Part shown: in pieces, positions 26,671 through 32,211 of the stretch | How positions within the stretch are numbered: the stretch's first letter is position 1 | Layout: every line of letters starts with the position of its first letter | DNA from: Elioraea rosea | Lineage (GTDB): Bacteria; Pseudomonadota; Alphaproteobacteria; Acetobacterales; Acetobacteraceae | Reading direction: 5' to 3' | Assembly (NCBI RefSeq): GCF_007644105.1 | Contig: NZ_VFAC01000008.1 | Coordinates: 1 to 64,000 of the forward strand | DNA length: 64,000 bases | The notes under the pieces: generated by a model | What the model was told of the DNA's origin: nothing | The model's database searches: none | The model's input: only the letters and a program-made list of their open reading frames with translations | Made by a program: the position numbers and the translations under genes

Positions 26671-26945
26671 CGTGAAATCTCCCCTATGGTTTCCGGGCCG
26701 GTCTTCGCAGCCCGTTCAGCCAGCGTTCTAGCTTAAGCCCGGGCGGCGACCAAGGGGTGCGCCAGCGAGGGGCAGGGCGAAGTCCGGTGCGATCGTGCAA
26801 CCAGAGACTTTGCGGCAAGCGGCGCAACATCGTCTAAAAAATAAACCTTCTTGCGTTATTTGACGTAGAGTGCGACAACCGTCTGACGGCTCAACCCCTG
26901 CATTGCAGGGCCGGAAACGGGGCCAACCTGGGAGCATTGAAGGCC
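26671..26945. promoter_or_regulatory. Divergent upstream region of importer 1 and the PEP-CTERM gene
   Basis: 275 bp between two divergent genes. It contains an unusually AT-rich patch (about 26830-26868, including TAAAAAATAAA) in otherwise GC-rich DNA. It also has a perfect 6-bp inverted repeat CCCTGC-ATT-GCAGGG (26896-26910) 35 bp before the + strand ATG. The patch is the likely promoter zone; no consensus box is clear enough to name. Confidence 0.5.
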
Positions 26946-27620
26946 ATGCGCGCACTCGGATTCGTTGCTGGTTCGATCGCCGCCCTAGCCCTCGCCTCCC
27001 CAGGCGCCAAGGCCTCCCCGGTCATGCACGCGAGCACGGAGGCGTTCGTTTCGATCGCCTACGCGCCTGGCAGCAACAGCACGCTCGGCCAGGTTGCAGC
27101 TGAAAGGCGCGTCATCGGCAACATGTTCGACGGCTCGAATGCCACGCTGCTCTCGCTCGGCCTCGGCGGCAGCATCTCGTTCCTGATCGCGCCGACGGAG
27201 AACACCATCATCGGCTCGACGGTGTTCGAGCTCACCAATCTAGGCTCCGGCCACAAGGAGCGGGCGCGCCTGTTCCTCGGCAACGATCTTGGCGACTGGG
27301 TCGAGATCGGAACGCTGCTAAACCAGGAGTTCGGTTCCCAGGTCATCAACCTCAACCCGCTGGTCGCGAGCCTCGAGGTGGTCGCCTTCGGGCCTGCCAC
27401 GGGCTTCGGGCTCACTGTCCTCGAGGGGTCGTTCAACTCGCTCCGCCTCGTCGATGCCTCGCCCACCACCGGGCGCAACCTCGACGGGTTCGACATCGCA
27501 ACGCTCTCGATCACCTCGCTCTCCCGCCCCGTCGCGATCCCCGAACCGGCCGCGGCGCTCCTGCTGTCTGTTGGCCTTCTCGGGCTAGCGATGGGCGCCC
27601 GGGCGCGCGCCCGGGCCTGA
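26946..27620 (+). CDS. PEP-CTERM sorted extracellular protein
   Basis: 224 residues. An N-terminal signal (ALGFVAGSIAALALASPGAKA) is followed by a beta-rich mature domain of unknown function. The C-terminal tripartite sorting signal is IPEP, a hydrophobic helix (AAALLLSVGLLGLAMGA) and a basic end (RARARA). Such proteins are processed by an exosortase (EpsH family) and usually go to the outer surface or an exopolysaccharide matrix. No exosortase gene is in this window. The ATG at 26946 was preferred to a TTG at 26937 because GGAG at 26931-26934 is better spaced. Confidence 0.85.
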   Translation: MRALGFVAGSIAALALASPGAKASPVMHASTEAFVSIAYAPGSNSTLGQVAAERRVIGNMFDGSNATLLSLGLGGSISFLIAPTENTIIGSTVFELTNLGSGHKERARLFLGNDLGDWVEIGTLLNQEFGSQVINLNPLVASLEVVAFGPATGFGLTVLEGSFNSLRLVDASPTTGRNLDGFDIATLSITSLSRPVAIPEPAAALLLSVGLLGLAMGARARARA

Positions 27621-27768: not shown

Positions 27769-29067
27769 ATGAAGACCGCGACCACCCTCCTGCACGCAGG
27801 GCACCGGGCCGATGCCGGAACCAACGCCGTCGCCGTGCCGATCCACATGACGACGTCGTACCAGTTCGACAGCACCGAGCACGCGGCCGACCTGTTCGCG
27901 CTCAAGCAGTTCGGCAACATCTACACGCGGGTGATGAACCCGACGACGGACGTGCTCGAGAAGCGCATCGCCGCCATGGAGGGGGGCGTGGCCGCGCTCG
28001 CCGTGGCCTCCGGCCAGGCAGCGACGATGATGGCGATCCAGAACATTGCCCAGGCGGGCGACAACATCGTCTCCTCGACCGACCTCTATGGCGGGTCGTG
28101 GAACCTCCTCGCCAACACGCTGAAGACGATGGGCATCGAGGTCCGCTTCGTCGACCCGACCGACCCCGAGAACTTCCGCCGCGCGACGGACGCGAGGACC
28201 CGCGCCTACTACGCCGAGACGCTGCCGAACCCGAAGCTGCACGTCTTCCCCATCGGCGAGGTCGCTTCCATCGGCAACGAGCTCGGCGTGCCGCTGATCG
28301 TCGACAACACGGCCGCGCCGTTGATCTGCAAGCCGTTCGCGCACGGCGCCCATATCGTCGTCTACTCGACGACCAAGTACATCGGCGGGCACGGCACGGC
28401 GATCGGCGGCATCATCGTCGACAGTGGAACGTTCGACTGGGAGAAGCATGCCGCCCGCTTCCCCATGCTGAACACGCCCGACCCGTCCTACCACGGCGCG
28501 GTGTGGACCGAGGCGGTGAAGCCGATCGGGCCCGTCGCCTACATCATCAAGGCGCGCGTGACGCTTCTGCGCGACGCAGGCGCGGCGATGAGCCCGTTCA
28601 ACGCCTGGATGTTCCTGCAGGGCCTCGAGACGCTGCCGCTGCGAATGGCAAGGCACAGCGAGAACGCCGCGAAGGTCGCCGCCTGGCTCGATGGGCACCC
28701 GGCCGTCGCGCGCGTCGTCCATCCCGGCCTGTTCGAAGGCATGCAGGCCGCGCGCGCGCAGCGCTACCTCGAGGGCGGCATGGGTGGGCTCGTCGGCTTC
28801 GAGCTGAAGGGCGGCCGCGCGGCTGGGCGGGCCTTCATCGATGCGCTGAAGCTCTTCTACCACGTCGCGAACATCGGCGACGCGCGGAGCCTCGCGATCC
28901 ACCCGGCAACGACAACGCACAGCCAGCTGAGCCCCGAGGCGCAGCTCAAGACGGGCGTGACCGAGGGGTACGTGCGCCTCTCGCTCGGCCTCGAGGACAT
29001 CGAGGACATCATCGACGACCTCGACCAGGCGCTGGCGGCCTCGCAGCCGGCGGCCGTGGCCGCCTGA
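27769..29067 (+). CDS. metY: O-acetylhomoserine aminocarboxypropyltransferase (sulfhydrylase)
   Basis: 432-residue PLP enzyme of the Cys/Met metabolism family, making homocysteine from O-acetylhomoserine and sulfide. The PLP lysine is Lys203 in YSTTKYIGGHGTAIGG. Other blocks are TTSYQFDSTEHAADLF, EGGVAALAVASGQAA and the C-terminal HPATTTHSQL, which is typical of MetY. The ATG at 27769 gives MKTATTLLHAG; a longer frame exists upstream. metA follows 78 bp later, consistent with one pathway. Confidence 0.93.
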   Translation: MKTATTLLHAGHRADAGTNAVAVPIHMTTSYQFDSTEHAADLFALKQFGNIYTRVMNPTTDVLEKRIAAMEGGVAALAVASGQAATMMAIQNIAQAGDNIVSSTDLYGGSWNLLANTLKTMGIEVRFVDPTDPENFRRATDARTRAYYAETLPNPKLHVFPIGEVASIGNELGVPLIVDNTAAPLICKPFAHGAHIVVYSTTKYIGGHGTAIGGIIVDSGTFDWEKHAARFPMLNTPDPSYHGAVWTEAVKPIGPVAYIIKARVTLLRDAGAAMSPFNAWMFLQGLETLPLRMARHSENAAKVAAWLDGHPAVARVVHPGLFEGMQAARAQRYLEGGMGGLVGFELKGGRAAGRAFIDALKLFYHVANIGDARSLAIHPATTTHSQLSPEAQLKTGVTEGYVRLSLGLEDIEDIIDDLDQALAASQPAAVAA

Positions 29068-29105: not shown

Positions 29106-29145
29106 GTCTCCCCCGCTCGCCCGCACCGGCAAGAAGGAGGGTGCG

Positions 29146-30333
29146 ATGCCGATCCAGCTTCCCCCCGGGCTTCCCGCCGCCGCCGCGCTGCGCGAGGAGG
29201 GCATCGCAGCTGAGGATGCCGGCACGGCCGCGCAAGGCTCGCTGCGCATCGCTCTCGTCAACCTCATGCCCGACAAGCCGACGACGGAGGTGCAGTTCGC
29301 CCGCCTTCTCGGCGCCGCACCCGGGACCGTTTCGCTCTCCCTCTTCGCCGCAGACGGCGGCGGCGCACGGCGCACCGCCGAGGCGCATCTCGCGCGCTTC
29401 TATACCCCCTTCACCCGGCTGCGCGCCGCCGCGGTCGACGGCATCATCATCACTGGCGCACCGCTCGAGACCATCGCCTTCGATGCCGTGCGCTGGTGGG
29501 GCGACCTCGCGTCCCTGTTCGACGATGCCGCCGCCGAACGCGTTCCGGTGCTCGCCGTGTGCTGGGCGGCGATGGCCGCTGCCTGGCACGGGCACGGCAT
29601 CGACAAGCAGGCACTGCCGCGCAAGGCGTTCGGGCTGTTCGCCCAGACGGTGCGTGACCGTGCCGCACCGCTGATGCAGGGCATCGGCCCGCGCTACGTC
29701 GTTCCGGTCTCGCGTCACGCCGCGCTGCGGCCGGAGGCGTTCGAGGGCGCCGAGGCCTGCGTGCTTGCATCCTCGCCCGCGGCAGGCGTCTCGATCGCAG
29801 ACAACGCAGCGAAGGGCGTGACCATGGTGCTCGACCATCTCGAGTATGACGGCGAGACGCTGATCGGCGAGTTCCTGCGTGACCGCGCAGCAGCCCTCCC
29901 TGTGCTCCCTCCCGCCGGCCTCACGCGCGAGGCACGGGCCGAGCTTCCCTGGCGGCCTGCGGGGCATCTCCTGATGCGGAACTGGCTCGGCCGCGTCACC
30001 TCCGCCGCGGCGCACCGCCGGCCGCAGGACATGATCGGCTGGCTGCTTGCCCCTGCGCGCGAACCAGCGGCGGCGGGCGAGCTCGTGCTCCGCATCGAAT
30101 CGGGAGCGGAGCCTCTTGGGGGCCTCATCGCGCTCGCAGAAGCGTGGGGCATTGGCCTCGCCGCCTTCGCGCGCCATCCCTCCGGCACGCTCCTGACGGT
30201 GACGCTCGCGGTCACGACGGCGCGCGAGGCGGCGGAGGAGCTTGCGGCGCGCACCCTAGGCCTTCCCGGCGTGCGCGAGGCCTACCTGCGCGGGCCCGGG
30301 CATGCCGGAATGGCATTCCGCGCCGCTGCATAG
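29146..30333 (+). CDS. metA: MetA-type homoserine O-acyltransferase with C-terminal ACT-like extension
   Basis: 395 residues; AAGGAGG precedes the ATG. Residues 1 to about 300 are a MetA (HTS) domain: LVNLMPDKPTTEVQFARLL, the nucleophile Cys139 in VCWAAMAAAW, and His231/Glu233 in DHLEYDGETLIGEFLRD. Glu108 in TGAPLE sits where succinyl-specific E. coli MetA has glycine; glutamate there is associated with acetyl-CoA use. The product is therefore predicted to be O-acetylhomoserine, which fits metY next door. The last 90-100 residues (from GELVLRIESGAEPLGG) have a beta-alpha-beta-beta-alpha-beta pattern like an ACT domain, possibly for feedback control. That is inference. Confidence 0.88.
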   Translation: MPIQLPPGLPAAAALREEGIAAEDAGTAAQGSLRIALVNLMPDKPTTEVQFARLLGAAPGTVSLSLFAADGGGARRTAEAHLARFYTPFTRLRAAAVDGIIITGAPLETIAFDAVRWWGDLASLFDDAAAERVPVLAVCWAAMAAAWHGHGIDKQALPRKAFGLFAQTVRDRAAPLMQGIGPRYVVPVSRHAALRPEAFEGAEACVLASSPAAGVSIADNAAKGVTMVLDHLEYDGETLIGEFLRDRAAALPVLPPAGLTREARAELPWRPAGHLLMRNWLGRVTSAAAHRRPQDMIGWLLAPAREPAAAGELVLRIESGAEPLGGLIALAEAWGIGLAAFARHPSGTLLTVTLAVTTAREAAEELAARTLGLPGVREAYLRGPGHAGMAFRAAA

Positions 30334-30339
30334 AGCAGC

Positions 30340-30381
30340 GCCCGACCTGATGGAACCGGCTTCGGTTCCATCAGGTCGGGC
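30340..30381. repeat. Perfect palindromic repeat element A
   Basis: A 19-nt arm (30340-30358, from GCCCGACCTGATGG) and its exact reverse complement (30363-30381) flank a 4-nt loop. A shorter outer pair GCAGC/GCTGC can extend it. It follows the metA stop by 6 bp and lies before the end of the converging regulator gene. Similar CCCGACCTGATGGAACC palindromes are recalled from intergenic spaces of other alphaproteobacteria. Confidence 0.75.
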
Positions 30382-30419
30382 CAAGCTGCGCCAATCATTT
30401 GGGGCTTGAGAGCACGACC

Positions 30420-30449
30420 TTCCGATCGATTGATTCCAATCGATCGGAA
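30420..30449. repeat. Perfect palindromic repeat element B
   Basis: TTCCGATCGATTG (30420-30432) and CAATCGATCGGAA (30437-30449) flank the loop ATTC, with GAGCA/TGCTC pairing further out. It sits 38 bp from element A and 7 bp before the converging stop codon at 30456. It is AT-richer than its surroundings, so it looks like an inserted REP-type unit. Confidence 0.75.
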
Positions 30450-30455
30450 CATGCT

Positions 30456-32030
30456 CTAGCGCTCCGGCACGCCGGCACGTCGAAGGCCTTCGGCGAAGCG
30501 GGCGATGAACGCCTCGTCGGCGCAAAAGAAGAAGTCGTCGCGCGCGCTGGCAATGGTGAAGCCGGGATGGCTGCGCGCAAGCTGCGCCACCGCCTCGCGC
30601 GCCTCCTCGCTCCGCCCGAGCAGCCCGAGCGTGGCGATGAGGTTGACGAGCGGGCGGTGGCTCGCGCTCGGATGCCTGAGCGCCATGCGCAGAAACTGCG
30701 CCGCCGCCTCGAGCTCGCCGAGCATGAGGTGCGCAGTGCCGCGCATCATATGGAACGTCCAGAGATGCGGGTCGCGCGGGCTGAGTTCCGCCGCCCGTTC
30801 CGACAGCGCGATGGATTCCTCGGCGCGGCCGCACCAGGTCAGGGTGAAGCCGAGGGCGAAATAGGCCTGCGCGAAGGAGGGGTTCAGCTCAATCGAGTGC
30901 TCGAGCGCGGCGATCGCCGGCTCGTACTGGCGATAGGCGGTCAGCGCGCGGCCCAGCACGCAGTGGCACATGCAGTCACGCTCGTCGAGCGCGACGGAGC
31001 GCTGCGCCGCGGCAAGTGCAAGGGCAAGCCGCTCCGGCCGCATCTCCGGCTCGCCGGCGAAGGCCTGCTGCAGGTTCACGTAGGACAGAGCCGCGTGCGC
31101 GCGGGCGAGCCCTGGCTCGATCTCTACGGCGCGACGGAAGCACGCCTCCGCTTCCGCAAATCCAGGCGCCGTGAACCCCCAGAGATGGAACAGCCCACGC
31201 TGGTAGCACTCCCACGCATCCAGGCTGCCAGGCGGCTTGCGCGCGGCGAGCTCGCGTTCGACGGCGGCGAGCTCGGGCTCGATCACGGCGGCGATGGCCT
31301 CGGCCATCTCGTCCTGGATGGCGAAGATGTCGTCCAGCCTGTGGTCGAAGCTCTCCGACCAGAGCTGGGTTCCAGTTTCCGCCGAAACGAGATCGGCGGT
31401 GATGCGCACCCTGTCGGCCCGCCTGCGCACCGCGCCTTGGACGAGGTAGCGCACGCCGAGCGCGCGCCCGATCTCCGCCGGCGGCAGGCCCTGGCCGCGG
31501 AACGGAAAGGTGCTGTGGCGGCTGAGCACGGTGAGCCAGCGATACCGCGCGAGCAGGCGGATGATGTCCTCTGTCAAGCCATAGGCGAAATATTCCGTAT
31601 CGGGTGCGCCACCCTCGTTGGCGAAGGGCAGGACGGCGAGCGAGGTTCGGCCCATCGGCGGGAGCGCCGCGCGCGGCGCCGCTTCGGGCGCCGGCCCCGG
31701 TGGCGCGTCGGCCTCGGCCTTCTCCTCCCCTACCTCGGCGACGAAGCGGAACCCCCGCTTGTGCACCGTGCGGATCAGCGCCTGCTCTTCGCCGCTGTCG
31801 CCCACTGCGCGGCGCGCGGCGTTGATCCGGCTCGAGAGCGCTGCCTCGGAGATCGCCCGCCCGCCCCAGATCGTATCGATCAGCTCGTCCTTGGAAACGA
31901 CACGGTCGCGGTTCCGGACGAGATGCGCGAGCAGGTCGAACACCTGCGGCTCGACATGCACAGGCTCGCCCGACCGGCGAAGCTCCTGCCTGTCGAGGTC
32001 GAGCTCGCACGACGCGAATCGAAGGCGCAT
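30456..32030 (-). CDS. Winged-helix transcriptional regulator with TolB-like and TPR domains
   Basis: 524 residues. Residues 1-95 form an OmpR/CadC-type DNA-binding domain (EPQVFDLLAHLVRNRDRVVSKDEL, then LIRTVHKRGFRFVAEVG). A Pro-rich linker leads to a TolB/FlgO-like segment (TSLAVLPFANEGG, GLTEDIIRLLARYRWLTVLSR), then TPR-like repeats to the end (SIELNPSFAQAYFALGFTLTWCGR). No transmembrane helix is seen, so it is probably a soluble regulator. The ATG at 32030 matches the domain start. Its target is unknown. Confidence 0.87.
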   Translation of the reverse strand: MRLRFASCELDLDRQELRRSGEPVHVEPQVFDLLAHLVRNRDRVVSKDELIDTIWGGRAISEAALSSRINAARRAVGDSGEEQALIRTVHKRGFRFVAEVGEEKAEADAPPGPAPEAAPRAALPPMGRTSLAVLPFANEGGAPDTEYFAYGLTEDIIRLLARYRWLTVLSRHSTFPFRGQGLPPAEIGRALGVRYLVQGAVRRRADRVRITADLVSAETGTQLWSESFDHRLDDIFAIQDEMAEAIAAVIEPELAAVERELAARKPPGSLDAWECYQRGLFHLWGFTAPGFAEAEACFRRAVEIEPGLARAHAALSYVNLQQAFAGEPEMRPERLALALAAAQRSVALDERDCMCHCVLGRALTAYRQYEPAIAALEHSIELNPSFAQAYFALGFTLTWCGRAEESIALSERAAELSPRDPHLWTFHMMRGTAHLMLGELEAAAQFLRMALRHPSASHRPLVNLIATLGLLGRSEEAREAVAQLARSHPGFTIASARDDFFFCADEAFIARFAEGLRRAGVPER

Positions 32031-32211
32031 CGAATGCCGTCCTCGCAGTTTCTTGCTTGGGCCAAAGGATACCACGGGCGGGGCGCTGGCAAGTTCTCAC
32101 GGAAATCTCCAGCGGTCGCGAAGCCCTCCTTCAAGCGGCGGCCGGCCACTGGCGGGAAAAAGGGAGCGCCGCGCCACTCCCGGCGCGAGCCGACGCATAG
32201 GAGGTTCCGCC

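Follow-up and report, generated by a model that had tools for sequence, protein, structure and literature searches.

The 395-residue protein encoded at 29146..30333 (+) of the window, by which we mean the whole stretch of 64,000 nucleotides of Elioraea rosea analysed here, is in our judgement probably an acetyl-CoA homoserine acyltransferase (MetA) with a C-terminal ACT-like domain that modulates the enzyme by way of a small ligand. MetA would acetylate homoserine with acetyl-CoA as donor, and the product, O-acetylhomoserine, would serve as substrate for MetY, whose gene lies immediately upstream; metY and metA are presumably transcribed jointly. The ACT-like tail would modulate MetA upon binding of the ligand, which may be amino-acid-like, for example methionine, SAM or some other aspartate-family compound.

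The metA gene is an open reading frame with an ATG start and a match to PF04204, and it has a full-length relative in SJ55, the protein of which is 47% identical to the window MetA across residues 1-393. The ATG at 29146 is taken as the start because a GGAGG, by sequence reading a likely ribosome-binding site (29136..29140, +), lies 5 bases ahead of it. The catalytic domain occupies residues 1-282 (29146..29991, +). The PF04204 match covers residues 2-282 at 229.5 bits against a Pfam cut-off of 27, which places the protein in the MetA/HTS family, and of the 43 columns that are invariant among 27 non-extended MetAs the window protein keeps 42, the exception being W127D; the catalytic domain therefore looks intact at the level of sequence. 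The predicted catalytic cysteine, Cys139 (29560..29562, +), and the predicted remainder of the catalytic triad, His231-x-Glu233 (29836..29844, +), fall in invariant columns. We take Cys139 to be Cys142 in E. coli numbering, and His231 and Glu233 to be His235 and Glu237, presumably with the same role in the triad.

Five MetA sequences were matched in the PDB, with 2ghr and 2vdj from B. cereus ranked first. They are 301-312 residues long and cover query residues 1-282 or 1-284. Since the matches stop there, the window protein runs about 95 residues beyond the normal MetA end, close to the figure of about 90 given in the first-pass annotation. It has the whole catalytic domain, with its Cys-His-Glu triad, in common with the MetAs of B. 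cereus (2vdj) and E. coli (7cbe), which also belong to PF04204, but differs from them in the extra residues with their ACT-like predicted fold and in the loss of the YQTTPF tail; the segment near residue 29 is also shorter than in known MetA. A reading-frame error, or translation past an ordinary stop codon, can be ruled out: the tail continues the MetA frame and is found again in SJ55 and in two genomes, G682 and G557, that belong to other families within the class.

The tail begins with a linker of residues 288-301 (start of RRPxDxxxWLLA; 30007..30048, +), which takes the position of YQTTPF in ordinary MetA, continues with the ACT-like domain of residues 310-383 (30073..30294, +), and closes with residues 383-395 (GPGHAGMAFRAAA; 30292..30330, +), which are nearly identical in a sister species of Elioraea (G125). 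No Pfam or NCBIfam family is recognised in residues 288-395. In an AlphaFold2 model of the window protein built from ten sequences, the tail has the order beta-alpha-beta-beta-alpha-beta, with strands at 311-318, 338-343, 349-356 and 376-382 and helices at 321-333 and 360-371. Averaged over ten-residue blocks, pLDDT lies at 64-77 across residues 311-380, at 61 across 381-390 and at 50-58 across 291-310, within a model whose overall mean pLDDT is 82.4 and pTM 0.76. The SJ55 model, for which the window sequence was left out of the alignment, has the same order of elements at 310-384 and block means of 67-81 for 311-380, and the two tails are identical at 37% of positions (40 of 108). The tail is thus predicted, with moderate confidence, to be an ACT-like domain by its fold; the outcome that would have spoken against the original proposal, a disordered or non-ACT extension, is not what either model gives. 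Foldseek and VIA-align with the whole window model returned MetA and class I glutamine amidotransferases among the best 50 of 1623 Foldseek matches at E up to 10; the catalytic domain dominates these comparisons and the tail is barely probed by them. Against the MetA structure 2h2w the model has a Z of 35.5 over 282 aligned residues at 2.2 A.

The fusion is sparsely distributed in our searches. At E 0.001 a match is found in 33 of 200 family genomes. At E 1e-60 it is found in 3 of 397 (the window's, G125 and G050) and, across the order, in one of 395, the window's own. A contig scan gave ten relatives, of which one has the tail; this is SJ55, and its contig is identical with that of G050. At E 1e-50, 38 of 385 class genomes have a match, at 40 places, and at three of these places, in the window, G682 and G557, the frame stays open beyond residue 380. 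We inspected the C-terminus at 20 of the 40 places (19 class loci and the window), so diverged tails could have escaped among the others. Two further places reach residues 380-381 only across a TGA, and their proteins are ordinary ones of 313 residues. The G682 protein has 436 residues and the G557 protein 429. Among plasmid records, 46 have a match and none has one place that spans 80% of the query. An alignment with MetA homologues had been suggested as a way of finding how widespread the extension is, and in the genomes covered here intact tails are found on three alphaproteobacterial branches, and a shortened one in the sister Elioraea.

For the phylogenetic analysis we aligned 32 catalytic domains, from the window, G125, SJ55, 14 of the 19 class proteins, nine of the 12 ordinary family MetAs (the rows ending at residues 303-306 at most) and six contig-scan loci (L032-L036 and L038). 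Five class proteins that resemble kept rows (L114, L115, L117, L119 and L123) were removed by hand. Also left out were the family MetAs L011, L012 and L015, the contig-scan loci L037, L039 and L040, and 15 divergent MetA-like proteins (L016-L030). The last form a divergent MetA-like family of Acetobacteraceae with TG-x-EP for TGAPxE and mostly SCLAAHA at the cysteine, and a MetY-like gene with 44-51% identity to the window metY adjoins them in 13 of 15 loci. In the tree the extended proteins occupy three early-diverging branches, one with the window, G125 and SJ55 (support 100/99), one with G682 and one with G557. Three changes of the tail are required, two of which are forced by well-supported branches. 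This fits one old fusion followed by losses, with several gains as the alternative. Three other proteins, L111, L033 and L034, join the window's group, with metY upstream in each; the node joining the three has weak support (83/51). The non-extended proteins L033 and L034, from Rhodospirillaceae M30B52 and Thalassobaculum fulvum, have short linker-like ends, RDQPASALDLLI and RDRPLGMLELLL, to be compared with RRPQDMIGWLLA, and judging from their sequence these ends are possibly the remnant of a lost ACT-like domain.

Ordinary MetAs end in YQTTPF or a similar sequence after NWL or NWI. This end was found by pattern in 21 of the 32 rows, the pattern having also accepted TSF (L128) and TTQF (L127), and it is present too in L006, which scored as motif-less only since its row was cut and which has YRTTPF in its full sequence. 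The YQTTPF-type end is absent from all five extended proteins. It is also absent from five early-branching non-extended MetAs (L111, L112, L032, L033 and L034), which have neither the motif nor the domain, so that loss of the motif is possible without an ACT-like domain. The available part of PMC10265765 gives I296S and P298L, used together and with R27C, as feedback-resistance changes of E. coli MetA. By numbering, these two positions lie just past NWLNYY (last residue 292) and within the YQTTPF end, and the window tail therefore sits in a region that in E. coli is linked with feedback control. Because the tail stands in place of this end, feedback control has perhaps been altered or taken over, and we infer that the ACT-like domain may be what took it over. 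The putative methionine site of E. coli MetA, Thr242 (available part of PMC10265765), aligns with Thr238 of the window protein; as this threonine is kept, methionine could also inhibit the enzyme without the tail.

A tail that is ACT-like in fold might also bind no ligand at all and contribute instead to dimerisation or to stability, in a lineage that is partly thermophilic, which we regard as a doubtful reading, if one with several points in its favour. ACT domains often act by pairing. The DxPG loop found between strand 1 and helix 1 of most collected ACT domains is absent from all four tails (window, SJ55, G682 and G557). E. coli MetA is described as extremely sensitive to thermal stress in the available part of PMC10265765, and Elioraea are moderate thermophiles, a description to which E. 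rosea itself is the exception (PMC8781829). The presence of tails in other families, as in G682 and G557, argues against a role peculiar to this lineage, and we continue to prefer modulation of MetA by a small ligand.

The gene could also be redundant and on its way out, which we think unlikely. A MetX-like gene is present in all four genomes considered (the window's, G125, Elioraea tepida and G050) at 448-457 bits, under a model cut-off of 500 bits that none of 14 control genomes passes either, and in the window's genome it is followed by metW (TIGR02081, 245.2 bits, cut-off 189.5). MetA is therefore not the sole route to acyl-homoserine and may be dispensable. This second route fits with the state of metA in sister species, three Elioraea genomes having been covered: in E. 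tepida (G045) no match to metA is found, and in G125 (L002/L042) the ACT-like domain is short by about 40 residues, four of the 43 invariant positions are changed and Pfam recognises PF04204 only. From its sequence the G125 metA may be decaying, and MetA and its tail would then be in the course of loss in Elioraea. The window protein, however, departs from the invariant positions at W127D alone and its frame is unbroken, and the SJ55 tail is still full length at 37% identity. We thus keep to a functional MetA with a modulating tail.

The resemblance of the tail to known ACT domains was measured with hhalign. Our ACT profile was made from 28 of 30 loci fetched from relatives (L065 and L077, near contig ends, were left out) and comprises aspartokinase, homoserine dehydrogenase, IlvH and SerA types, labelled by eye; the HMA profile was made from 20 of 24 fetched loci and the NIL profile from three sequences only. 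A profile of two tails scores 23.8 against the 28 ACT sequences and 24.4 against the homoserine dehydrogenase set, and in neither case does any of 150 column shuffles score as high (largest 17.0 and 18.7). The other ACT types are weak in this comparison (IlvH 7 of 150 and SerA 18 of 150 shuffles as high, aspartokinase at a probability of 0.1%), and in the controls 13 (NIL) and 24 (HMA) of 150 shuffles are as high. With four tails the score against ACT is 30.7, at a probability of 71% over ACT positions 1-80 of 82, and none of 100 shuffles reaches it (largest 16.1). The same holds for the homoserine dehydrogenase (26.2), IlvH (19.7) and SerA (19.9) sets taken singly, and against aspartokinase 5 of 100 shuffles are as high. 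ACT subfamilies compared with one another in the same setting give 2.4% to 94.7%. HMA, which has a similar topology, scores 22.3 with four tails, at 16% and over just 36 columns, again with no shuffle of 100 as high; NIL has no similarity beyond composition, with 65 of 100 shuffles as high. Taken singly against all ACT, the tails give 0.2% (window), 1.5% (G682, out of register), 19.2% (SJ55) and 22.9% (G557), and that of G557 gives 23.3% against HMA over 16 columns. The ACT signal therefore depends on the combined profile and the models and not on the window sequence alone.

Family libraries are silent on this likeness. Pfam gives no ACT (PF01842) match to the four single tails at E up to 10, in a search where the HMMER filters discard most weak matches, and NCBIfam gives no match to the tail. 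The weak Pfam matches that do occur in single tails (Met_gamma_lyase 0.04, Big_11 0.072, BON 0.12, PapR 1.9) were taken as chance. No ACT protein is found among PDB sequences with three- or four-tail profiles at E up to 10; the three-tail profile finds a thymidylate kinase (E 0.021) and the four-tail profile other weak matches. No second copy of the tail occurs in the window's genome at E up to 10. These missing matches, the partial match to HMA, the low single scores of the window and of G682 (out of register for the latter) and the pLDDT of 64-77 would all be understandable if the tail were a ferredoxin-like domain unrelated to ACT, or had no one stable fold, and the match reflected composition and shared topology. 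We hold this to be quite unlikely, given that the window and SJ55 models agree and that the match to ACT spans nearly the whole domain and stands above those of HMA and NIL. As to the ACT-like pattern that the first-pass annotation had seen, the two models and the two- and four-tail profiles uphold it, but Pfam, NCBIfam and the PDB profile searches do not extend it to membership of a named ACT family. By sequence profile and predicted structure we would call the tail ACT-like, and we do not assign it to PF01842.

With the PF01842 domain of homoserine dehydrogenase, aspartokinase, SerA and IlvH the tail shares the predicted order of strands and helices and a nearly full-length profile match, which is best with the homoserine dehydrogenase set among these four subfamilies. 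It differs in that it is not seen by Pfam, has lost the DxPG loop and is fused to an acyltransferase. The NIL domain (PF09383), the methionine-binding domain of MetN, has an ACT-like fold and a place in methionine metabolism in common with the tail, but shows no profile similarity beyond that of shuffles; with no NIL in the window's genome either, a NIL-type methionine domain is unsupported, and neither this comparison nor the missing DxPG loop lends weight to the methionine or SAM sensor proposed in the first-pass annotation. In some archaea MetX is fused to CBS domains, which likewise joins a homoserine acetyltransferase to a C-terminal ligand-sensing domain, although catalytic fold and sensor domain are both unrelated to those described here.

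Zubieta and others reportedly described, in 2008, a single residue that switches the acyl-CoA specificity of MetA. In our alignment Glu108 (codon 29467..29469, +) falls on Glu111 of the acetyl-type B. cereus MetA (2vdj), and E. coli MetA (7cbe, succinyl-type, and 6mtg) has Gly at this place, so that the residue had been correctly located in the first-pass annotation. Glu is, however, present at this position in all 32 aligned MetAs; Glu108 therefore does not single out the window protein, and we reject it as a special mark. The protein scores 222.1 bits on the NCBIfam model MetA_acetyl (NF047918, cut-off 460.5) and 202.3 bits on MetA_succinyl (TIGR01001, cut-off 495), and is by sequence divergent from both. 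The metY gene (27769..29067, +; TIGR01326) ends 78 bases upstream of metA and scores 620.7 bits on the OAH_OAS_sulfhy model TIGR01326 (cut-off 495.1) and 345.7 bits on TIGR01325, O-succinylhomoserine sulfhydrylase (cut-off 510.05), as befits the O-acetylhomoserine type that had been claimed for it. Because of Glu108 and this neighbouring gene, acetyl-CoA specificity is likely for the window MetA, and would be ordinary among the MetAs aligned; the earlier claim is consistent with Glu108, the higher MetA_acetyl score and metY. That the enzyme takes succinyl-CoA despite Glu108 is very unlikely, for although both NCBIfam scores are far below their cut-offs, which leaves some room for it, the residue, the order of the two scores and the O-acetylhomoserine-type metY all speak for acetyl-CoA.

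The metY gene adjoins metA in G125, SJ55 and G682 as well, the G682 copy being upstream and 75% identical to the window metY; in G557 metY is absent within 1.5 kb of metA. Gene order around metA is retained in G125. Directly upstream of the window metY, positions 26937-27620 encode a small protein with a PEP-CTERM-like C-terminus; NCBIfam PEP-CTERM models match it below their cut-offs (best E 4.9e-05) and Pfam gives nothing, and a similar open reading frame also precedes metY in G125. A search of the window and ten loci with Rfam at the gathering score gave one match, a tRNA, and thus no known SAM riboswitch ahead of metY at that score; according to the available part of PMC4239095, SAM_alpha is reported only in Rhizobiales and Rhodobacterales. 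Just 3' of the metA stop is a perfect 19-bp hairpin with a 4-base loop (30340..30381, +; -41.3 kcal/mol, z -9.7). It has no U tract and does not match the terminator pattern; from its sequence and position it is perhaps the end of a metY-metA transcript. Together with a second inverted repeat at 30405-30462 (perfect stems of 19 and 13 bp) it separates metA from a convergent gene, and each repeat occurs once in the window with up to 3 mismatches allowed. The convergent gene (30456-32075, -) encodes a regulator with a Trans_reg_C DNA-binding domain (PF00486) and TPR, both over Pfam cut-offs, and a similar open reading frame lies downstream of metA in G125 and SJ55.

The fusion appears, from sequence and models, to be a variant of the known MetA family, and its tail indicates a domain still unlabelled in current family libraries. 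In a literature search of titles and the starts of abstracts, with most subscription journals outside its scope, no MetA-ACT fusion was found, and the available part of PMC10464499 names ACT domains for other enzymes only. MetA catalyses a committed step to methionine that is under feedback control, and the solved MetA structures considered here show no separate regulatory domain. A MetA-ACT-like fusion would show how such a step gains modular control and would explain the loss of a conserved tail, and the ACT-like tail is a candidate domain to graft or delete in methionine-producing laboratory strains. Tentatively, and as a possibility that we rate clearly below the modulated enzyme itself, the early-branching and mostly metY-linked alphaproteobacterial MetAs may form an undescribed allosteric class, in which an ACT-like sensor replaced the feedback-sensitive tail in an old fusion that was then lost several times. 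If so, homoserine acetylation in these bacteria would be under ACT-based control, as aspartokinase and homoserine dehydrogenase are at earlier steps of the pathway.
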